Positions 4,696 through 19,722 of a stretch of 39,808 nucleotides of DNA are shown piece by piece. Each line of letters begins with the position of its first letter. Positions within the stretch are counted from its first letter, which is position 1. The notes under the pieces are model-generated. The model ran no database searches and was not told the DNA's origin. It worked only from the letters and a program-made list of their open reading frames with translations. Source of the DNA: Pseudomonadota bacterium. Lineage in GTDB: Bacteria; Desulfobacterota; Syntrophorhabdia; Syntrophorhabdales; Syntrophorhabdaceae. The position numbers and the translations under genes are program-made. The stretch spans positions 45,062-84,869 of the forward strand of contig JAPLKC010000134.1 of the NCBI GenBank assembly GCA_026388255.1, read 5' to 3'.

Positions 4696-5031
4696 TTGGA
4701 AAGAGATAATTTTGGCGCTGACCCACAAATCAGATACCTGCGGCAGGTATTCGGACATACGGAGACAGCACAGGCAGATTTTTTGCATCGTTTAAACATA
4801 TCTCCTTTTGACGACAGGCTTCGCCGCTGGCGCGAGGCAGCATTGAAATTGTTTGAAAAAGTATGGATGTTATCGTCAAAACGGGGCATCACTTCGGAAA
4901 AAGAACAAGTCTCAAAAATCTACCTGCATTGCCTTGCCCACTTCCTTAAACTGAACAGAATAGGAGTCCCTCCTGAAATACTTCCTGTTGATGGAAATAT
5001 CGACAGTCTCATAAAGGAGGTGCTAAAATGA
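4696..5031 (+). CDS. Hypothetical protein, TTG start
   Basis: A 111-residue protein. The TTG start is set by GGAGG seven bases upstream (4684-4688); the ATG at 4682 is in another frame. It is predicted soluble and helical, rich in Arg, Leu and Glu, with no signal peptide and no motif I recognise. Its stop overlaps the next start as ATGA, so the two genes are translationally coupled and probably act together. Position just upstream of the phosphatase/kinase block is suggestive only. Confidence 0.7.
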   Translation: MERDNFGADPQIRYLRQVFGHTETAQADFLHRLNISPFDDRLRRWREAALKLFEKVWMLSSKRGITSEKEQVSKIYLHCLAHFLKLNRIGVPPEILPVDGNIDSLIKEVLK

Positions 5032-5363
5032 TCCGTCTGCGTCTCTTTGGTCGCTGCCGTATTTACCATGATCCGGTATCGCCTGTGCTCCGTGAACCGG
5101 CACAGATCGGATGGAGCGCCTGGTTCAGGATTATTGATCTCATAACGCCGCAACCGTTGAAAGGGGAAGAACTGCTCAGAAGGACGCGGGGGTGGTGGAC
5201 GGTTGAACCGACAGATGTTGCCGAGGTAGTAAATAAATATGGCCGTCTGGTAGTGGGGGACAGCGGCGAACTTATGGTAGAGTTCGAAGATGAAAATGCT
5301 GCCAGGGGCTTATCAAAGGCGCTTGGAGAACGTTTCGGGGTCCAGGTCCAACTTGCCCCGTAA
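5028..5363 (+). CDS. Hypothetical protein coupled to preceding gene
   Basis: A 111-residue protein starting at an ATG that shares bases with the upstream TGA; AAAGGAGG precedes it. It has a basic N-terminus (MIRLRLFGRCRIY), a Trp-rich middle (GWSAWFRIID, RGWWTVEP) and an acidic C-terminal part that looks like a small alpha/beta domain. No family recognised. It ends 69 bases before the PP2C gene on the same strand. Confidence 0.7.
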   Translation: MIRLRLFGRCRIYHDPVSPVLREPAQIGWSAWFRIIDLITPQPLKGEELLRRTRGWWTVEPTDVAEVVNKYGRLVVGDSGELMVEFEDENAARGLSKALGERFGVQVQLAP

Positions 5364-5432: not shown

Positions 5433-6224
5433 ATGATTGAGGCATACGGTTTAACAGACGTAGGAAAGAAAAGAAAACGGAATGAAGATTGCGTCCTTAT
5501 CAATAAAAAATTATCTCTCTTCATAGTAGCCGACGGAATGGGCGGACATTCCTTAGGGAACTATGCCAGCAATACCACGGCAAGCACAATAAATACTTTT
5601 ATAGAAAAAGAAATTTCATCATCCAACTCAAAAGATCTGAAAAAGGATGAATTTATTTTTTCTTTGCTTAAATCTGCAGTACAAACCGCTAACACAGAGA
5701 TATTCAAGCGCTCACAAAGCTTACAGGAAAAAATAACCATCGGGGCCACAGTCAGTATGACACTTATGAGGGATAGTAAAATTTATATTGCACATGTAGG
5801 CGATAGCAGTATATACAGGCTTCGTTCAGGTGTTATGGAAAAGTTGACAAAAGACGACAGCGTGGTTCAAGGCCTTATCGAAGAGGGAAAGATAAGCGAG
5901 GAAGAGGCAAAAAACCACAAACTCAGCAATATCATCACAAAAGCCGTTGGTTCATCTGCGAGTATCGAACCTTTCATCGGCATGTTTGATATGAATGACA
6001 GAGATATCTACCTTCTTTCTTCGGACGGTCTTACAAAAATGCTGGACGTGGATGTTATCAAGGGAATACTGGCCGGACAGGGTAAAGTAAAAGATAAATG
6101 CAGTACACTTCTTGGGGAAGTGCTTCAAAGGGGCGCATTGGACAATGTATCAATAATTATTATTGAGTTCGGCAAAAAAGATATATTAAAAAGAATTTTC
6201 TCTAAAATTCCGGGGCGCGCCTGA
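5433..6224 (+). CDS. PP2C-family Ser/Thr protein phosphatase
   Basis: 263 residues, the usual size of bacterial Stp/PrpC phosphatases. Motifs are in order: GKKRKRNEDC (residues 11-20), metal-binding VADGMGGHS with Asp34-Gly35, HVGDSSIYRL, then SSDGLTKM and GALDNVSIII carrying the later metal-ligand aspartates. It should remove phosphate from Ser/Thr of soluble proteins using two Mn/Mg ions. There is no membrane segment. It is convergent with the Ser/Thr kinase gene, with an 8-base gap, a common writer-eraser pairing. It probably reverses that kinase and may act on the FHA proteins nearby (inference). Confidence 0.93.
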   Translation: MIEAYGLTDVGKKRKRNEDCVLINKKLSLFIVADGMGGHSLGNYASNTTASTINTFIEKEISSSNSKDLKKDEFIFSLLKSAVQTANTEIFKRSQSLQEKITIGATVSMTLMRDSKIYIAHVGDSSIYRLRSGVMEKLTKDDSVVQGLIEEGKISEEEAKNHKLSNIITKAVGSSASIEPFIGMFDMNDRDIYLLSSDGLTKMLDVDVIKGILAGQGKVKDKCSTLLGEVLQRGALDNVSIIIIEFGKKDILKRIFSKIPGRA

Positions 6225-6232
6225 ATGTTGTA

Positions 6233-7255
6233 TCATTTAAGTATAATCGTCTCGTCCGATTCTTGCCTTTCCTTAATCTGATCTTTAGAAATTACAATTG
6301 TTTCCTGTGAATCCTCTGTGTTTTTTACCTCATACATGTCGGGGAATATCTTATTAAGATAGGTTGCAATTGTCTGTATGGTTGGCCCATACCCCTTATG
6401 GTATATAAAATATTCAAGGTCCCTGCCAAGTTCCCCGGCATCCTGATAACGCTTCTCCACATCACGCTCCAGGGCTTTAAGGATGATCTTTTCTAACGAT
6501 TCAGGAATATCCGGGTTGAGGGCGCCTGGTAACGGAATCTCTTTTGAAACAACATCCTTCATAACCTTTTCTGAACTGCCTGCGCCTCCGAAGAGTCTCT
6601 GGTCTGTAAGAAGCTCATACATAAGGATTCCGAGACTGAATATATCAGACCTCTTATCAACCGGTTTCATCATTACCTGCTCCGGCGACATATAGGCTGC
6701 CTTACCCACAAGATACTGACCATCTTTTTCATCCACGCTTCCTGTAAGAGCCACGCCAAAATCGGTAATTCGGACCTCGCCCTCTGCGCTTATCATAATA
6801 TTCTTCGGGGATATATCCCTGTGTACTATCCCCAATAGACGATTGTATTTATCTTTCTTGTTATGCGCATATTCAAGGCCCCGGCAGATACGCGATACAA
6901 TAAAGACACCCAGATCAACAGGGAATTTTGCATTCTCCGCCTTATGCTTTTGAATAAAGTCATGGAGGTCAACACCGTTGACATACTCCATTAAAATAAA
7001 ATACTGATTACCGAAGGAGCCGAGCTTGTAAACCTGTACGATATTTTGATGTACAAGGTCAGCTACGAGCTTTGCCTCTGCAATGAAGCGTTTCACGAAC
7101 TCCGCATTCTGGAAAAATGCTTTCTTGATAAGTTTCACACAGGCGAGTTTTTCAAAACCCTCAACTCCATAGATTACGCATTCGTGTATGGAGCCCATTC
7201 CCCCTTCAGCGATGAGACGCGTGAGCTTTATTCTTAGTTCATCTGAAATTTCCAT
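6233..7255 (-). CDS. Hanks-type Ser/Thr protein kinase, soluble
   Basis: 340 residues with a full kinase domain: glycine loop AEGGMGSI (16-23), ATP lysine Lys41 in ACVKLIK, catalytic loop HRDISPKN (Asp147), DFG at 165-167, and APE-like YMSPEQ. The insert VEGFEKLACVK resembles kinases common in Myxococcota and related deltaproteobacteria. It lacks the transmembrane and PASTA regions of PknB types, so it is probably cytosolic and activated by a partner. The tail after residue 310 carries two acidic-Thr-hydrophobic motifs, QETIVIS and DETIILK, similar to threonine sites read by FHA domains. It is divergent from the FHA-LuxR gene. Confidence 0.94.
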   Translation of the reverse strand: MEISDELRIKLTRLIAEGGMGSIHECVIYGVEGFEKLACVKLIKKAFFQNAEFVKRFIAEAKLVADLVHQNIVQVYKLGSFGNQYFILMEYVNGVDLHDFIQKHKAENAKFPVDLGVFIVSRICRGLEYAHNKKDKYNRLLGIVHRDISPKNIMISAEGEVRITDFGVALTGSVDEKDGQYLVGKAAYMSPEQVMMKPVDKRSDIFSLGILMYELLTDQRLFGGAGSSEKVMKDVVSKEIPLPGALNPDIPESLEKIILKALERDVEKRYQDAGELGRDLEYFIYHKGYGPTIQTIATYLNKIFPDMYEVKNTEDSQETIVISKDQIKERQESDETIILK

Positions 7256-7365: not shown

Positions 7366-8001
7366 ATGACAGGAAAACATGCCGGAACAGCCCCTATTAA
7401 CATCAAGGTTTATGTCAATGGAATCCTTGTTGATGAGCATGATCTCCTGCAAGGCACTTTAAGAATAGGGAGACATACAGACAACGATGTGATCTTAAGA
7501 AGCAATCGTGCTTCAAGGTACCATTGTCGTCTTGAATGGAGGGAGGGAAAACTCTTTTTAATTGATACAAGCAAAAACGGTACTTTTATAAATGGCATAA
7601 ATGTGCGAGGGCAGTCGGAGGTAATGCTGGGAGATGTAATTACTATCCATCCTTACACGCTCCTTATGGCCCCGATTGATGTTGCCGGCGCAGCGAGAAC
7701 CCATGCCAGCCCCGAGGAGTCCGATACCGTCTTTGTTGTTCCAGGGAGTAATTTACAAAGGGACTTTCTTGAGAAGAACTTCGAAATCACACACAGGGAA
7801 TATGAGATCATCGAGTACGTGCTCATGGGCCGTCATAATAAGGATATCTCGGAAATTTTACACATAAGCGAGTTTACCGTAAAAACCCATTTGAGAAATA
7901 TCTTTGAAAAGCTTCAGGTAGAGAGCAGAACTCAACTCATCGCAAAGATTACGGCAATGAATTACCCCGAGGGGGCATTTGACCCGAGAGGCAATAAATA
8001 A
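7366..8001 (+). CDS. FHA domain - LuxR-type HTH fusion regulator
   Basis: 211 residues. An N-terminal FHA domain (about 12-105) has the phosphothreonine-binding set: Gly35-Arg36, Ser50-Arg51 and His53 (SRYH), and NGTFING (71-77). A linker contains ESDTVFVV with Thr121, a possible phospho-site that could bind the FHA domain in cis or trans. The C-terminal LuxR/GerE helix-turn-helix (about 141-198) reads TVKTHLRNIF, with VESRTQLI after it. There is no receiver domain. The likely job is a transcription factor gated by threonine phosphorylation. It is divergent from the kinase and convergent with the export operon, whose control by this protein is an inference. Confidence 0.9.
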   Translation: MTGKHAGTAPINIKVYVNGILVDEHDLLQGTLRIGRHTDNDVILRSNRASRYHCRLEWREGKLFLIDTSKNGTFINGINVRGQSEVMLGDVITIHPYTLLMAPIDVAGAARTHASPEESDTVFVVPGSNLQRDFLEKNFEITHREYEIIEYVLMGRHNKDISEILHISEFTVKTHLRNIFEKLQVESRTQLIAKITAMNYPEGAFDPRGNK

Positions 8002-8081: not shown

Positions 8082-9401
8082 CTACCTCACTTCTACCCTT
8101 TTTGTCTGACCCATGCCGTTGCGGTCAACAATCTTTATTTCGGTTATGCCTCTTCTCACAGCCTGGAACTGAAATGTATTAGGTCCAGCTTGACCCACTG
8201 TCACAATATTAGGAACAGAGAAGTATACCGAATAATTAGGTGTACCTCCCGAGATTGCGCAGTTAAATCTTTCGTTTATTGAGAAGACATCCTTTGGCGG
8301 CATCCACTGGACATTTAAAGGCGGCGCTTGAGGCGCTGTTATAGTCAATTGTAATGAAATGGTTTTGCCTGATGCATCTCTTACCATAAGGTTCGTGGTG
8401 CCGGCTCTTAAACCATAAATTCTAAATTCATTCAAAGATACACGGTTCATTCTTGTGATGCTTCCCTGTTCATAAACCGCATAGCCAGGCATGCCGTCTT
8501 TAACGGTTAAGGTTGCATAAACCGATCCACTTATTGGGATCATATAAGGATTTATGGACGCCTGGAGGGGTGGATATTTTGGCTGCACGGTCACTTTAAC
8601 GGCAGCCTGCTGTCCCTGTGCATCCTTGAAAACAACATCCGTTGTCCCCGGGTTTATTCCTATGATAAAAAAGCTGGCAGGGCCGGTCTGTTGAAGCGCC
8701 ACAATAGTTCTGTTGAATGCAGAAATATAGTACGGTTTCATGCCGCCGCTTAACGTTGCCGTAGCGCGCTCCCCTACTTTAAAATTATCCGGGGTAACGA
8801 CTGCAACAAGCGGAGGCACAGATACGGTAATCTGCGCCACTTTTGACTGGCCGTTTCTATCCTGGACGGTAATATTGGCTTGGCCGGGCATCCTTCCCAT
8901 AATATAAAAGGCATTTTCTGCTATTTGTTGTAACGATATTATGCTGCCGTTGCTAATGCCTGCGATTCTATAAGGTTTCATGCCTCCATCTATACTAAGC
9001 TTCGACTGTTGTCCTATAGTAATTTTTGGAGGATCTATGTATGTATTCAACGGTTTAGTTTTCACGGTAACAGTCACTCCGTATTGGGTACCTCTTCCAT
9101 CCCGTGCTATGATGCTGGCTGTCCCGGGATTTAAGGCCATCACTGTCCCCATATTCGAACCGGTTTGTCTCACGGCAACAATTTGCGGGTTATTTGTATA
9201 AATAGTTATGGGCGATTGACCTCCGCTTGCATTGATGCTGCCGGCCTGTCCGACCTCATATGCAGTAGGCGATACATTCAATTGAAGCGGGGCAACATAC
9301 TTATAAAACCATCCCATGCCAAATGCTGATCCGTAGCCTGTTAAAATAAAAGCGGAGATAAGCAAAATACATATGGCTTTGTGTTTTAAAAAGTTATTCA
9401 T
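8082..9401 (-). CDS. Secreted protein with five bacterial Ig-like (BIG2-type) repeats
   Basis: I choose ATG 9401 (439 aa) because GGAG ends 8 bases upstream; the GTG at 9410 sits on that ribosome site. A signal peptide (FLKHKAICILLISAFILTGY) is followed by five repeats of about 77 residues. In the 442-residue numbering from the GTG they lie near 43-118, 123-200, 201-277, 282-359 and 364-441. Each has a PLxxxxxP opening, a (S/D)GGxxPY turn, a hydrophobic core and a closing G(T/Q)xxIxVxDxxG strand, as in Ig-like stalk or adhesin modules. No sortase, autotransporter or C-terminal anchor is present. It follows the exporter permease by 93 bases with a shared terminator, so it may be cargo or an accessory of that exporter (inference). 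Confidence 0.85.
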   Translation of the reverse strand: MNNFLKHKAICILLISAFILTGYGSAFGMGWFYKYVAPLQLNVSPTAYEVGQAGSINASGGQSPITIYTNNPQIVAVRQTGSNMGTVMALNPGTASIIARDGRGTQYGVTVTVKTKPLNTYIDPPKITIGQQSKLSIDGGMKPYRIAGISNGSIISLQQIAENAFYIMGRMPGQANITVQDRNGQSKVAQITVSVPPLVAVVTPDNFKVGERATATLSGGMKPYYISAFNRTIVALQQTGPASFFIIGINPGTTDVVFKDAQGQQAAVKVTVQPKYPPLQASINPYMIPISGSVYATLTVKDGMPGYAVYEQGSITRMNRVSLNEFRIYGLRAGTTNLMVRDASGKTISLQLTITAPQAPPLNVQWMPPKDVFSINERFNCAISGGTPNYSVYFSVPNIVTVGQAGPNTFQFQAVRRGITEIKIVDRNGMGQTKRVEVR

Positions 9402-9494
9402 TTTAAACACTCCTTTTTACTTTATTTATATACAATAAGAACCTATAACAAGTCTTATGGTTTGTCAATAATACAAATGGAGTATTTTATCATG

Positions 9495-10685
9495 TTACTC
9501 CATCCTTAATGCATCAATTATTTCCATTTTTGCAGCATTTCTGGCTGGAATGTAGCCAAAAATTACGCCTATGGCCATTGAGACGAAAAAGCTTAAAAAT
9601 ATTGAAGTTACAGGAATAATGGTTTTCCAGTTTGCGACAACGGCAATGCCAAGGGACGATATAACGCCGATAATAATGCCTGCCGTTCCCCCTATGAGCG
9701 AGAGGAATACCGATTCCGAGAGTATTTGTATCATAATCACCATCCTGTCAGCACCGCAGGACCTTCTGATACCTATCTCTCTTCTCCTCTCTTTAATGGA
9801 TATGAGCATAAGATTCATGATGCCGATACCGCCGACGATGAGCGAAATAGCAGCAGTGGCAATAAGCGTCTTTGATGCGGTTTTGGACTGTTCCTCTGCC
9901 TGTTTGATAAGCATCTCCTGAGTATCGAGATTCATGCTCAGGTTGGTTCTCCGTGTAAAATAACTTATTAATTTTGCCTTTGCTTTTTCTGTCGGGTAAT
10001 CTTCCCTGATCTTTGCTTTAAAGTTTGTCAGTTTTTTTGTTTCAAAGACAATCGCCGCTTTTTGAATAGGAATAAACATGGCTTCGTTAAAATTATCCGT
10101 CAATTTATACTCAAGTTTTTCATACACGCCGATTACAGTAAATTTGTGTCTTTTCACATAAACATCTTTGCCGATGATGCCCCCTCGGCCGGCCTTGCCG
10201 AAAATCTGTGAAGCAAGCTCATAACCTAAAACACAGTAATTCTGCTCCATATCGAACTCTTCTATTTTTCTGCCGAATTTAATTTTTAATTTATTGATAC
10301 TATTAAAACTTCCGGTTATGCCAAGCACGGTTACATCCCTGAATACACCCTCTCTGCCGACAGAGGCAAATCCATCAATCCGCGCCGCTACCGATGTTAT
10401 AATATTGTTTTCATTTACCATTTTCTGTACATCTTCAGCCTTTAAAATGTATTTATCCTGAAGCCCTTTTACCTTTTCTTTGCCTGCCTGCTGCTCCGAG
10501 CCGGTAATAATGTCTGTCCCAAGCGCCTTCAATCCGGCGAGCGCCTTCTCCTTTGCGCTTTCACCTACAGAAATCATACACACAACAGCAGCAACCCCTA
10601 TGGTAATGCCGAGGAGTGCGAGAATCGTCTGGAGTTTGTTGGATGTGAGACTTCTTAACGCTTCTTTGATGGTCAGTATAAACAT
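9495..10685 (-). CDS. MacB-like ABC transporter permease (FtsX family)
   Basis: 396 residues. One N-terminal membrane helix (LQTILALLGITIGVAAVVCM), a periplasmic MacB-type domain (about 45-270) and three C-terminal helices (about 275-390) ending YIPARNAAKMEIIDALR, a hallmark of the MacB/LolE/FtsX fold. The segment SIKERRREIGIRRSCGA is the coupling region that contacts the ATPase. It starts 3 bases after the ATPase stop. With the ATPase, membrane fusion protein and TolC it makes a MacAB-TolC-like mechanotransmission pump. The ATPase is separate, unlike E. coli MacB, where it is fused to the permease. Confidence 0.92.
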   Translation of the reverse strand: MFILTIKEALRSLTSNKLQTILALLGITIGVAAVVCMISVGESAKEKALAGLKALGTDIITGSEQQAGKEKVKGLQDKYILKAEDVQKMVNENNIITSVAARIDGFASVGREGVFRDVTVLGITGSFNSINKLKIKFGRKIEEFDMEQNYCVLGYELASQIFGKAGRGGIIGKDVYVKRHKFTVIGVYEKLEYKLTDNFNEAMFIPIQKAAIVFETKKLTNFKAKIREDYPTEKAKAKLISYFTRRTNLSMNLDTQEMLIKQAEEQSKTASKTLIATAAISLIVGGIGIMNLMLISIKERRREIGIRRSCGADRMVIMIQILSESVFLSLIGGTAGIIIGVISSLGIAVVANWKTIIPVTSIFLSFFVSMAIGVIFGYIPARNAAKMEIIDALRME

Positions 10686-10688
10686 AAT

Positions 10689-11372
10689 TCAGTTGTTGAT
10701 GTAATCTTCAATAATTACACCGTTGTTGATCTTGATTACCCTCTTTGCCATTTTCGCAATCTTCATGTCATGAGTTACAAGGACTACTGTGATGTTCTTG
10801 TATTCTACCCACCCTTTGATAATATTCATTATCTCCACGCAGCTTTTCGGATCAAGGGCTCCGGTGAGTTCATCGCCAAATATAATTGAAGGTCTCGCAA
10901 CAAGCGCTCTTGCCACAGCCACCCTTTGTTGTTGACCTCCCGAAAGCTGACTTGGTTTATAGAATATCCTATCCTTAAGACCTACCTGACACAGGGCGGC
11001 GTATGCCTCTTTTCTCCTTGTATTTGGAGGGATTTTCCTGTATACGAGAGGAAGTTCGACATTTTCAATAGCGTTTAGCTTCGGGAGGAGATTATAGGAC
11101 TGGAAGATAAAGCCTATTTCTTTATTCCGGAGTTTAGACAGTTCTTTATCGGCCATCTTCTGGACTTCCACCCCATTGAGCAGGAAAATACCTGATGAAG
11201 GTTTATCCAGACATCCAAGGATGTTCATAAGGGTTGATTTTCCCGAACCGGAAGGACCTACAATAGACAAAAACTCACCTTGCCCGATCGTGAGGTTAAT
11301 CCTGTCTAACCCCTTTATTTCCCTGCCGTCAGGGCTTTTAAATATTTTTGCAATGTTTGTAAGCTCAATCAA
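10689..11372 (-). CDS. ABC transporter ATPase (MacB/LolD type)
   Basis: 227 residues. Walker A GPSGSGKST (39-47), Q-loop in FIFQSYNLLPKLNAIEN, signature LSGGQQQRVAVARAL, Walker B IIFGDE, D-loop GALD and switch His in VLVTHD. The FQSYNLLPKLNAIENVELPL segment is typical of the LolD/MacB ATPase family. The TTG start overlaps the TGA of the FHA-fusion gene, so the two are translationally coupled. It powers the adjacent permease. Confidence 0.93.
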   Translation of the reverse strand: MIELTNIAKIFKSPDGREIKGLDRINLTIGQGEFLSIVGPSGSGKSTLMNILGCLDKPSSGIFLLNGVEVQKMADKELSKLRNKEIGFIFQSYNLLPKLNAIENVELPLVYRKIPPNTRRKEAYAALCQVGLKDRIFYKPSQLSGGQQQRVAVARALVARPSIIFGDELTGALDPKSCVEIMNIIKGWVEYKNITVVLVTHDMKIAKMAKRVIKINNGVIIEDYINN

Positions 11373-13723
11373 TGCAATATCACCTTGCCGCGCTTTATCT
11401 GGCTTTCAAAGATATCTTCCGGATCTGATGTAATAACCCGCGTCCCTTCCGGTATTTTACTGTCAATTACTTCTACATTATCTTTATTTGCCTGACCTAC
11501 TGTTATGGTAGTAAAGTTTATATTGTTTTTGCCATCGAGGTATAAAATTGCGGGTTTATTCTCGAAGTAAAAAACAGATGAAGCCGGGACTGCAAGGACG
11601 TTTTGTTTTTCGTTCATAATAATGGAGGCTGAAGCCGATGCCCCGATCCTGAGCGCCTTCTTTAATTCTTCGTCAGCTTGAATCTTAATCTTTACTTCAA
11701 AGACCGATGTGTTCTCTTTTATTGTGGCCCCCAATGCAACCTCTGAAACAATTCCGATAATTTCTCTGTCTTTTATAATATCCGTAGTGATTTTTACCGG
11801 TTGCCCGACTATTATTTTTCTGATCTCGGCTTCAGGCGCCTCTATTTTTAATCCGACATTATCGAAATCCCCCAGGTATGCGAGCACTATCCTTGAAGGA
11901 GCTGTCTGGCCTTTGACTATTACATTCTTTCCGCCTGAAGTAACTACAGGAAATGTTACTATTCCGGTCACAGACGCTTTTATCTCGCTTTTCGCAAAAT
12001 TGGCTTCAAGTTCATTTAATACAGCCTGTGCCTTTTTGAAATTCAACTGGGCAACCTGTTTTGTAGCGTGTAAGCTTTTTAACAGGGCGTCAAGCTTATC
12101 CTGAAGGCCTTTCACCTGGTTTTCCACGCCCCTGTATTCTGCTTCAGCCGTCTCGATCTCATTTTTTGCCATAATGCCCTTCCCTACAAGCCGGTTGACT
12201 CTCTCCTTCTTATTTTTTACTCTGATGAAGTTATTTTCAGCCTCATTAAGCGCCCTCTTCGCCTCTATGATCTCAGGGGATTTTCCTTCTTCCCTGTTTT
12301 CGTATTCCATAACCCTGCTGTAATTAGTTTCAGCATTGAGGAGTTCTATTTTTGCCTGTTGTATCTGCTGCTGGATTGTATTGTTTTTGATCTTCAGTAA
12401 AAGCTGCCCTTTATTGACCATATCCCCATCTTTAAATCCCAGATCTTCCACTACACCTTCTATTTCGCTCATAATAGGAATAGGATTGAGAAAATTAATA
12501 ATCCCGGGGGATTCAAATGTATCAGAAAAATTTACCCTTTTTATTTCCGCCACAGAGTATTTTCCCGAAAATGCCTTTCCACCGACGCTGAAGATAAATC
12601 TGTAACCGACAAACACAGAGACTATAATGATAAGCACAGCCAACGATGAGACAATCGTGGCAAGCCTTTTCTTTTCCCACAACGATAATAAAAATGTGAC
12701 AAGCTTTTTCTTATCCCGTAACAACGAGAGGATTGTGACAATCTTTGCCTTTTTCATGACTTTTTGCAAGAATGTTTCCGAAATCTCTATATACTGACGG
12801 GACCCGTCAGATTCTGCCCACTCCTGCGCAAAAGATTCCGGGGTAAGCTGTTCTGTCTGGATTTCAGCAGGCTTTGCGAATAATATTGCTTCGGCATCGG
12901 CCTTATTATTATCGGAAATGACAAGTCTGTATGAGGACACCCTGATCTCTTCTCCAAGGTTGATCTGCTCTGTGCAATTATTGCCAGGGGGAAGGTCGCG
13001 CCCTGCAAAATTAACAAAGGAACGGCCTACATAGTTAACATCAATGCCATCGGGCAGATACTTTATGATAAAGAGGTCCCGTGAGATTTCTTTATTATCA
13101 AGCAGGATATTATTGCCCTTTGCCCGCCCTACTTTTAGCTCCAGGCCCTGCTCAAGCTTATATGCCGCTTGAAAAATATCATTCTCATAAATCTTCACAT
13201 AGATGATAGAGGGCAGTTCATATGCCTTCCGTTCAGTAAAAACAATATCTTCCCCGGGCCCATAAACTCCGACACCACCAAGCATGGTCTCTTCTTCCTC
13301 GTGCTGCTTAAAACCACCAGGCATGGTCTCTTTTTCCTCGTGTTGTTTAAAACCTCCAAGAATCGTCTCCTCAGACTCCGCAGCTTCTGTTGTTTTCATG
13401 GAAATTCCTTCAGTCTGTTCCCCCACCTCCTGAGAAATGGCAACTGCGATCTTTACATTGCCCACGGTTATTTCATCCAGATCGTTCAGCCTGATATTTA
13501 TTACCTCGCTGCCGTTTACCTTGACAGGATTTTTCCCCACGTTTTTGAGCGTATAGACACCGTTGGAATATTCTATTTGTATTTGTATGCGGGAAACGGT
13601 TGATTCCGATTCGTCAACTCTAATGGTACAGCCCGGATCTCGTCCAACCGAGATAACCTCTGTACTCATAAAATCATATTCCTTCTTGTCGCCTCTTGAA
13701 TCAATCACTTTTATGGTTATCAT
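11369..13723 (-). CDS. FHA-FHA-membrane fusion protein (MacA/HlyD type) fusion
   Basis: 784 residues, about twice a normal MacA. Order: FHA1 (3-95; Gly27-Arg28, Ser44-Arg45, VNG at 69-71); three ETxxGG repeats with threonines 120, 133 and 146; FHA2 (175-270; Gly199-Arg200, Ser214-Arg215); a basic, three-times-repeated juxtamembrane stretch (324-362); a membrane helix (about 354-375); then a periplasmic HlyD/MacA part with a lipoyl half-motif (VEDLGFKDGDMVNKGQLLLK), a long coiled-coil hairpin and beta-barrel/MP domains. By topology the FHA domains are cytosolic and can read phosphothreonine, while the rest bridges permease and TolC. FHA1 has Ile where many FHA domains have His after SR, so binding strength is unsure. 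ATG is set by GGAGA 8 bases upstream. Confidence 0.9.
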   Translation of the reverse strand: MITIKVIDSRGDKKEYDFMSTEVISVGRDPGCTIRVDESESTVSRIQIQIEYSNGVYTLKNVGKNPVKVNGSEVINIRLNDLDEITVGNVKIAVAISQEVGEQTEGISMKTTEAAESEETILGGFKQHEEKETMPGGFKQHEEEETMLGGVGVYGPGEDIVFTERKAYELPSIIYVKIYENDIFQAAYKLEQGLELKVGRAKGNNILLDNKEISRDLFIIKYLPDGIDVNYVGRSFVNFAGRDLPPGNNCTEQINLGEEIRVSSYRLVISDNNKADAEAILFAKPAEIQTEQLTPESFAQEWAESDGSRQYIEISETFLQKVMKKAKIVTILSLLRDKKKLVTFLLSLWEKKRLATIVSSLAVLIIIVSVFVGYRFIFSVGGKAFSGKYSVAEIKRVNFSDTFESPGIINFLNPIPIMSEIEGVVEDLGFKDGDMVNKGQLLLKIKNNTIQQQIQQAKIELLNAETNYSRVMEYENREEGKSPEIIEAKRALNEAENNFIRVKNKKERVNRLVGKGIMAKNEIETAEAEYRGVENQVKGLQDKLDALLKSLHATKQVAQLNFKKAQAVLNELEANFAKSEIKASVTGIVTFPVVTSGGKNVIVKGQTAPSRIVLAYLGDFDNVGLKIEAPEAEIRKIIVGQPVKITTDIIKDREIIGIVSEVALGATIKENTSVFEVKIKIQADEELKKALRIGASASASIIMNEKQNVLAVPASSVFYFENKPAILYLDGKNNINFTTITVGQANKDNVEVIDSKIPEGTRVITSDPEDIFESQIKRGKVILH
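12638..12754 (-). repeat. Three degenerate 39-bp tandem units in the fusion-protein gene
   Basis: Residues 324-362 fall into three 13-residue units aligned on Thr330, Thr343 and Thr356: AKIVTILSLLRDK, KKLVTFLLSLWEK, KRLATIVSSLAVL. The last unit becomes the start of the membrane helix. The DNA repeats with the same period, suggesting duplication inside the gene. Confidence 0.65.
13274..13375 (-). repeat. 39-bp tandem repeats encoding ETxxGG motifs
   Basis: Near-identical 39-bp units encode ETILGGFKQHEEK, ETMPGGFKQHEEE and a partial third unit, ETMLGG. Threonines fall at 120, 133 and 146, exactly 13 apart, in the linker between two FHA domains. Candidate phosphorylation and FHA-docking sites. 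Confidence 0.8.
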
Positions 13724-13746: not shown

Positions 13747-15210
13747 TTACTCCCTTATCTTTTTATATAGCGCTTTTTCCTTTTCGAGTTCATCTTCAAA
13801 ACTGATGTTCAGGTATTTTAGAAGCGTACCCTCGGATTTTTTTAATGCAATAGCGGTTATCTGGTAATCGGTGATTGCCTTGTTTTCTGCGGACCTTGCG
13901 GTGGAAAGATCATTCTGAAAGGTGATCACCATAAAGTTGTCAGAAAGCCCTTCGTCAAGCTTTATCATCTCCGCCTCAAGCTTCTTTTCTGCAAGCTCTC
14001 TTGCGTTTTTCGAGACTTCAACCTTTTTCTGGGCGGTCTCCAATGCGCGTATAGTCTGTTTGAGTTCTTTTGCTATAGTGTCTTTAAGCTGCGCGAGGGT
14101 TATTCTTGACTGCTGGTTGCTTATCTTGCTCTTGTAATAGGCATCTTTTTTTGCCGTGTTTGGAAAGGGAACGGAAAAATTCAATCCTCCCGTCCAGTTT
14201 CTCGTCTGATCCATCCTTGACATAGCTCCCTGTGTAAAGCCGCCCGGATTGTAATTGGAACCGGTTGTATAGCCCCCAGAGAAGGATAGATCCGGCAAAC
14301 TGCTGCTACGTGCCACTTTTAGATTCCATTCACTGATTTCCAGGTTTTCCAGTGCCGTTAGGTAATCGGGACGGTATTTGAATGAATTTTCCATGACTTC
14401 TTCATAGTTGGGGTCCAACCGGCGAAAATTCGGAGAATCAACAGGCACAATCTCCTCCGAAAGATCAAGCCTCAAGAGATTCAGTAGTGTATCCTTGTTG
14501 TCCTTTGCTTCCTTCTCTTTTGTTAAAAGTGAATCTTCCCTCGTGGATATGGCCGCTTCGGTCTGGTATTTTTCGAGTTCTGCAAGATTACCCTCTTTTA
14601 TAAGCTCAAGGGTTCTTTCATGGACTTTTTTTGCATCTTCGTAGTTTTCTCTCGAAATTATCAGCTCCTCAAGAGACATTTTCAGACTCCAGTACGCTGA
14701 ATTGACATCTGCAATAAGTTTTTCTATTCCTTCTCTCAGAGCAAGGCGCGAAACATTTAGCTGCTTCCCCGATATAACAATCGGTGCAATGGTCACATCC
14801 CAACCGAAATTTGCAAGGAGCGGCATGCTCAACGTGAATCCGGAGGCTGACTTGTACGTGGGAGACGATTCAAGAGTTGAAGTCCTATAGTAGTTCCATA
14901 CCAAGTCGACTGTCCCGCCAATGGGGAGCTTTTGCGAAATCTTGCTTGATCCGTCCTGAGTGTAAGTATCAATGTTGGCGTCCCCGGCGGTTGAGAGTCC
15001 CTGGGTAAAAGTCGGATTATATAAGGTGGCTTTAGCGATATTCACATCTAAAGCTGCCGAAACCGGATTAAGCCTCTGTATATTGAGATTGAGATTGTTT
15101 GATAAAGCTTTTGTAAAGGCATCGGTCAATGTAAGGGGCTTTTCCTCAGCCATGGATAAAGATGAAAAATGTATTGAGTATGTTACAATTATAAGGAGTA
15201 TTATAAACAA
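13747..15210 (-). CDS. TolC-family outer-membrane efflux/secretion protein
   Basis: 487 residues from the first canonical codon (TTG 15210). Two OEP repeats form the trimeric channel-tunnel: LTLTDAFTKALSNNLNLNIQ at the N-terminus, long helical hairpins, and a second half starting near SEWNLKVARSSSLPDLS. The better ribosome site (AGGAG, 15231-15235) points to an in-frame ATC at 15220-15222, which would add four residues and give the normal basic start (M)KKRLFIILL of a signal peptide. It is first in the operon and lies 23 bases before the FHA-fusion gene. It should supply the outer-membrane duct of that exporter. Confidence 0.9.
   Translation of the reverse strand: MFIILLIIVTYSIHFSSLSMAEEKPLTLTDAFTKALSNNLNLNIQRLNPVSAALDVNIAKATLYNPTFTQGLSTAGDANIDTYTQDGSSKISQKLPIGGTVDLVWNYYRTSTLESSPTYKSASGFTLSMPLLANFGWDVTIAPIVISGKQLNVSRLALREGIEKLIADVNSAYWSLKMSLEELIISRENYEDAKKVHERTLELIKEGNLAELEKYQTEAAISTREDSLLTKEKEAKDNKDTLLNLLRLDLSEEIVPVDSPNFRRLDPNYEEVMENSFKYRPDYLTALENLEISEWNLKVARSSSLPDLSFSGGYTTGSNYNPGGFTQGAMSRMDQTRNWTGGLNFSVPFPNTAKKDAYYKSKISNQQSRITLAQLKDTIAKELKQTIRALETAQKKVEVSKNARELAEKKLEAEMIKLDEGLSDNFMVITFQNDLSTARSAENKAITDYQITAIALKKSEGTLLKYLNISFEDELEKEKALYKKIRE

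Positions 15211-17791: not shown

Positions 17792-19722
<1,931 letters not shown>

Follow-up and report, generated by a model that had tools for sequence, protein, structure and literature searches.

A triplicated threonine motif between the two FHA domains of a MacA-like exporter adaptor encoded near genes for a Ser/Thr kinase and a PP2C phosphatase

FHA domains are specific for phosphothreonine (PMC7761784), and the residue at +3 of the phosphothreonine is described as crucial for recognition (PMC6733907). Rv1747 of Mycobacterium tuberculosis is an ABC transporter with an FHA–disordered linker–FHA region that is phosphorylated by PknF (PMC9312465, PMC7761784); PknF is encoded in the same operon, and the condensates driven by phosphorylation are reversed by PstP (PMC9312465, PMC7761784, PMC3908365). 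Phosphorylation-driven clustering of an exporter is already known for a mycobacterial ABC transporter. GarA has its phospho-sites in an ETTS motif outside the FHA domain and binds its own phosphothreonine (PMC5448819). The FHA domain of DgcB from Bdellovibrio reads a phosphothreonine of the same protein and activates the attached output domain, and the +3 position matters there (PMC6733907).

Here we analysed 39,808 nucleotides (hereafter, the window) from a genome of the Syntrophorhabdaceae, phylum Desulfobacterota (assembly GCA_026388255.1, contig JAPLKC010000134.1). One gene encodes two FHA domains, the linker between which holds three threonine repeats, and then a transmembrane segment and a periplasmic adaptor of the MacA/HlyD type (Table 1). 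A different subunit, in an outer-membrane bacterium, has apparently arrived at a layout similar to that of Rv1747, with the threonine motif multiplied. The original prediction, which was made from the letters of the window, placed threonine repeats between two FHA domains and proposed that they are self-docking phospho-sites; it included neither the continuation of the protein into an efflux-pump adaptor nor the kinase and phosphatase a few genes away.

Table 1 Coordinates of features in the window
Feature	Position	Strand	Basis
PP2C phosphatase	5433..6224	+	Pfam
Ser/Thr protein kinase; C-terminal tail ends SQETIVISKDQIKERQESDETIILK	6233..7255	-	Pfam, translation
FHA-LuxR regulator; linker motif SDTVFV (Thr121)	7366..8001	+	Pfam, sequence
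MacB_PCD/FtsX permease	9495..10685	-	Pfam
MacB-type ABC ATPase	10689..11372	-	Pfam
784-aa FHA1-linker-FHA2-transmembrane-periplasmic adaptor (MacA/HlyD) fusion	11369..13723	-	FHA E 1.1e-13; TIGR01730 114 bits
Periplasmic adaptor (HlyD/MacA) domains	11426..12484	-	Pfam, NCBIfam profiles
Transmembrane segment; hydropathy peak from about residue 354, preceded by basic residues	12578..12664	-	Hydropathy
FHA2, about residues 194-267 (divergent)	12923..13144	-	Weak profile match, hhalign, joint model, sequence
Repeat unit 3 (half unit), ETMLGG, Thr146	13274..13291	-	Tandem Repeats Finder and translation
Repeat unit 2, ETMPGGFKQHEEE, Thr133	13292..13330	-	Tandem Repeats Finder and translation
Repeat unit 1, ETILGGFKQHEEK, Thr120	13331..13369	-	Tandem Repeats Finder and translation
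FHA1, residues 21-93	13445..13663	-	Pfam, fold match, motifs
TolC-like outer-membrane efflux protein	13747..15210	-	Pfam

The first FHA domain is certain. In addition to its Pfam match (E 1.1e-13), the corresponding part of the joint AlphaFold2 model (residues 1-100) resembles solved FHA domains, with a Z score of 14.6 to 3poa and 12.9 to FHA-1 of Rv1747 (6ccd). It retains the GR (G27, R28) and SR (S44, R45) motifs and the loop asparagine (N65), and reads KNPV where the majority of FHA domains read NGTF. The second domain is divergent and probably genuine, as judged by profile comparison and the succession of strands in the model. It lacks a Pfam match, is recovered as a weak profile match at residues 194-267 and by hhalign (E 4e-5, probability 70%), and shows an FHA-like order of strands at a pLDDT of around 62-80 in the joint model, the overall confidence of which is low (mean pLDDT 58.7); a single-sequence model of this domain had no confidence. 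FHA2 keeps GR and SR and has apparently lost the loop asparagine. Both domains depart from the consensus in the phosphothreonine-holding loop.

The C-terminal part scores above the curated cut-offs of RND_mfp (TIGR01730; 114 bits, cut-off 94.9) and HlyD_3 (41.5 bits, cut-off 22.2) and below that of the MacA equivalog model (NF008606; 37.2 bits, cut-off 342). Because basic residues precede the transmembrane segment and the periplasmic adaptor follows it, the FHA1–linker–FHA2 region should be cytoplasmic. As in MacA–MacB–TolC systems, the adaptor is clustered with a MacB_PCD/FtsX permease, an ABC ATPase and an outer-membrane factor; in contrast to them, permease and ATPase are separate genes and the adaptor carries a cytoplasmic extension of around 350 residues.

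The kinase lies in the same cluster, four genes from the adaptor gene, and kinase, PP2C phosphatase and FHA-LuxR regulator all fall inside 8 kb. The genome has two FHA genes above the Pfam cut-off, both of which are found here within a span of around 7 kb beside the kinase and phosphatase, and three kinases above the cut-off, including this one. Directly downstream of the permease, 8082-9410 encodes a protein that looks secreted and has repeated pilus-N-type (T2SS-T3SS_pil_N) domains; the pump might export it or work with it in the envelope. Elsewhere in the window, dnaK—normally a single frame—is broken at 19213-19692 into an N-terminal ORF of 118 amino acids and a C-terminal ORF of 473 amino acids in different frames, which may be an assembly error.

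Among the described systems, Rv1747 is a nearer analogue than GarA. It also combines an export machine, two cytoplasmic FHA domains, a disordered linker and a nearby Ser/Thr kinase, and its phosphorylated state is reversed by a phosphatase. However, the FHA module of Rv1747 sits on an ABC half-transporter of the ABCG type, whereas here it sits on the adaptor of a MacB-type pump, ATPase and permease being separate polypeptides without FHA domains, and the linker motif occurs three times with a period of 13 residues. The protein is thus outside the Rv1747 family and carries the module on another subunit. GarA and OdhI resemble it in having an E-T motif within a disordered stretch apart from the FHA domain; their motif contains the phospho-sites and is read by the protein’s own FHA domain (PMC5448819), but it lies in the N-terminal tail of a soluble metabolic regulator with one FHA domain and no repeats; the NCBIfam OdhI model gives 23.6 bits (cut-off 200), which places the protein outside the GarA/OdhI family. 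DgcB likewise has an FHA domain that reads a phosphothreonine of the same protein and an attached output domain (PMC6733907); in DgcB, a hydrophobic residue occupies +3 of an N-terminal motif and the output domain is a diguanylate cyclase.

The linker array comprises two complete units followed by half of a third (ETILGG, ETMPGG and ETMLGG, on the minus strand); the 39-bp repeat was detected at 13274-13369 with a copy number of 2.5, 85% matches and a score of 143. The repeats had been described as exact: the spacing of Thr120, Thr133 and Thr146 is indeed exactly 13 residues, whereas the units themselves are only near-identical, and their placement between two FHA domains was borne out. Seven of the 39 bases separate unit 1 from unit 2, 4 of the changes being synonymous and 3 non-synonymous, and the array is therefore not the product of an assembler duplicating one read. 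The linker is acidic (17 acidic and 6 basic among 73 residues) and, with a pLDDT below 50 in the joint model, is probably disordered. Units 1 (ETIL) and 3 (ETML) have an acidic-Thr-Φ-Φ core (Φ, hydrophobic) between the two FHA domains; unit 2 (ETMP) departs from it in that Pro occupies +2 and Lys -2. The residue at +3 is Gly in each copy.

We compared the linker with those of other FHA proteins, using a non-redundant set of 78 proteins, drawn from all loci collected, in which an FHA domain is N-terminal, or 77 once the window protein was left out. They had been retrieved by FHA1 patterns, an FHA profile or similarity to the FHA region of the window protein, and the linker motif was not a criterion. 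Within the 60 residues that follow FHA1, the motif [DE]-x?-T-Φ-Φ is present in 25 of the 77 (3.7 expected by shuffling) and with a further Φ at +3 in 23 (1.0 expected). The Ser version is not enriched (1 versus 4.5 expected) and the reversed motif is at chance level; a K/R-T control is also elevated (13 versus 3.0 expected), because DKT or EKT is common among the motifs. Proteins with two FHA domains carry [DE]-x-T-Φ-Φ in the linker in 21 of 32 cases, compared with 4 of 45 without a nearby second FHA domain (Fisher’s exact test, p 2e-7), although the comparators are related and both this value and those from shuffling overstate independence. Across several phyla the Thr of these linkers is kept while the flanks drift, with kinase and PP2C genes adjoining in many cases, and the preference for Thr over Ser fits the phosphothreonine specificity of FHA domains. 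Retention of the Thr amid drifting flanks is what the original prediction had set in advance as a check. Its proposal of FHA self-docking fared less evenly: the recurrence of the Thr motif in inter-FHA linkers and the precedent of GarA speak for it, but the residue at +3 is hydrophobic or aromatic in at least 23 of the 25 comparators and Gly in every unit here. Together with the off-consensus loops of FHA1 and FHA2, this weakens the case for docking, and we regard the phospho-docking interpretation, which is comparative in its basis, as partly supported.

The C-terminal tail of the kinase holds two further motifs of the ET-Φ-Φ-Φ type, ETIVI and ETIIL. The FHA domains could therefore be receptors for the phosphorylated tail and for other proteins, with the ETxxGG units serving as substrate sites or as spacers, unbound by the FHA domains, and the adaptor tethered to the kinase instead of to itself. 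The tail motifs and that of the FHA-LuxR regulator have a hydrophobic +3 (I, L or V), closer to the comparator consensus than ETxxGG, and on sequence this arrangement would satisfy the +3 preference better than self-docking does; the interaction of Rv1747 with PknF in a yeast two-hybrid assay also requires the FHA domains of Rv1747 (PMC3908365). By contrast, the tail motif was not found in other kinases that adjoin two-FHA genes, whereas the linker motif is widespread, and we consider tethering to the kinase somewhat unlikely.

Searches of the genus, the class (46 genomes), the phylum (395 genomes), genome contigs, plasmids and viral contigs for relatives of FHA1–linker–FHA2 returned partial FHA matches only; the same searches found no other FHA–adaptor fusion, and the triple ETxxGG repeat, the copy number of which might vary between strains according to the original prediction, in no genome other than that of the window. 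With the best two candidates per genome scored, the full protein matched proteins of the phylum in the adaptor domain only, at 20-32% identity, a PAS domain preceding the adaptor in several of them. Those of the long FHA ORFs in the phylum (around 620-820 amino acids) that were read directly have other architectures with no sign of an adaptor, and we found no paper in the literature that describes an FHA–adaptor fusion. Fusion and repeat are known from one genome, so the conservation seen in other linkers concerns this type of Thr and not Thr120, Thr133 and Thr146 themselves.

Nine genomes of the same class encode a stand-alone FHA–linker–FHA protein of around 230 amino acids, next to a PP2C phosphatase and a CHASE2-kinase in the loci that were read. 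It shares with the window protein the domain order, the acidic-Thr-Φ-Φ core and, in some cases, the genomic site, but is soluble, has a single motif copy and no adaptor, and its FHA2 is without GR and SR. The linkers read SM(D/N)ET(I/V)LLSP or SMDATIVLDT, the Thr being invariant in 8 of 8, and Thr120 aligns with this column (MAFFT). In two genomes the stand-alone cassette sits between lon and a small conserved gene that corresponds to 5028-5363, which is the site of the exporter module in the window. Across the loci compared (L091, L093 and L220), this site is empty in one genome, contains CHASE2-kinase, PP2C and FHA–FHA genes in two, and contains the exporter module in the window; other genomes have unrelated genes there. 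The site is therefore variable, and two different phospho-signalling modules have entered it. We rejected the idea that the exporter module simply replaced the stand-alone cassette in place, given that in G024 lon directly adjoins the homologue of the 5028 gene and that G001, in which lon is 97% identical, has other genes at the site.

These comparisons bear on whether the copied threonines have a function, or whether slippage simply lengthened an acidic, disordered spacer. The 85% matches are those of a recent tandem duplication, the repeat was found in one genome, and a second tandem array in the same gene (12641-12717), with the same 39-bp period and the same number of units, points to a slippage-prone gene; it encodes three 13-residue basic-hydrophobic units (KAKIVTILSLLRD, KKKLVTFLLSLWE and KKRLATIVSSLAV) and runs into the transmembrane segment. 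Against functionless copying, the ETIL of unit 1 recurs in the one linker motif that the stand-alone proteins carry, the Thr is retained in all three units, and synonymous changes are in excess between units 1 and 2 (dS ~0.57, dN ~0.09, p 0.02, on 7 differences). We judge slippage without function to be unlikely. The units might instead dock another partner through their GG-F-K-Q-H-E-E segment, with the Thr incidental, as Gly-Gly and FKQHEE are conserved between units 1 and 2 equally to the Thr; but unit 3 is ETMLGG only, having lost FKQHEE, and the related linkers have only the acidic-T-Φ-Φ core in common, which makes such a partner very improbable.

From the domain order, the repeat, the kinase–phosphatase–FHA neighbourhood and the conservation of the Thr type in inter-FHA linkers, all of which are directly established, we favour the reading that the cluster encodes a tripartite ABC exporter regulated by phosphorylation which, judging by its layout, would work like Rv1747. 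The repeat would then be a linker of triplicated kinase sites and FHA-docking sites at the cytoplasmic side of the MacA-like adaptor, switching or clustering the exporter by phosphorylation, a reading to which we assign a probability of about 0.5. The adjoining kinase would phosphorylate Thr120, Thr133 and Thr146, and FHA1, perhaps also FHA2, of the same or neighbouring protomers would bind the phosphothreonines. Adaptors of the MacA-like kind work as oligomers and each chain has several sites, so binding could be multivalent or graded, as the original prediction had proposed. Phosphorylation would be expected to tighten or cluster the adaptor and its ABC partner, with a putative effect on export, and the PP2C phosphatase would reverse this state. 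More tentatively, the adaptor of this envelope-spanning pump may possess its own cytoplasmic multivalent phosphothreonine–FHA network, in which kinase and phosphatase control how many units are phosphorylated and thereby how the pump assembles or clusters.

Several HlyD-type adaptors of the phylum (L006, L007, L008 and L024) have an N-terminal PAS domain by Pfam, another fusion of a signalling domain to an adaptor. As in the window protein, a cytoplasmic signalling domain stands ahead of the adaptor, but it is PAS in place of FHA and has no Thr repeats. In Lamprocystis purpurea, an FHA–FHA–ABC transporter of the ABC2 membrane type (L120 8623-12760) is encoded beside a kinase. This arrangement in a Gram-negative bacterium resembles that of Rv1747 and lacks the linker motif.

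The recurrent [DE]-x-T-Φ-Φ-Φ linker motif may allow self-docking sites of FHA proteins to be predicted from sequence. Besides the window protein, more than one copy was found only in an FHA–FHA protein of Marinobacter (L170, with the near copy L174 clustered with it), which is an independent instance of a multiplied linker motif. With one motif in the relatives, three in the window and three in Marinobacter, a natural valency series is available in which the number of sites can be tested against cooperativity. The Marinobacter genes (L170 8947-9990 and L174 8917-9960) adjoin PP2C and multihaem cytochrome-like genes, and of their three linker motifs (DATLLYG, DATLLHG and EPTLIG) two are in tandem (DPDATLLYG and DPDATLLHG) and the third, EPTLIG, has Gly at +3, as in the window.
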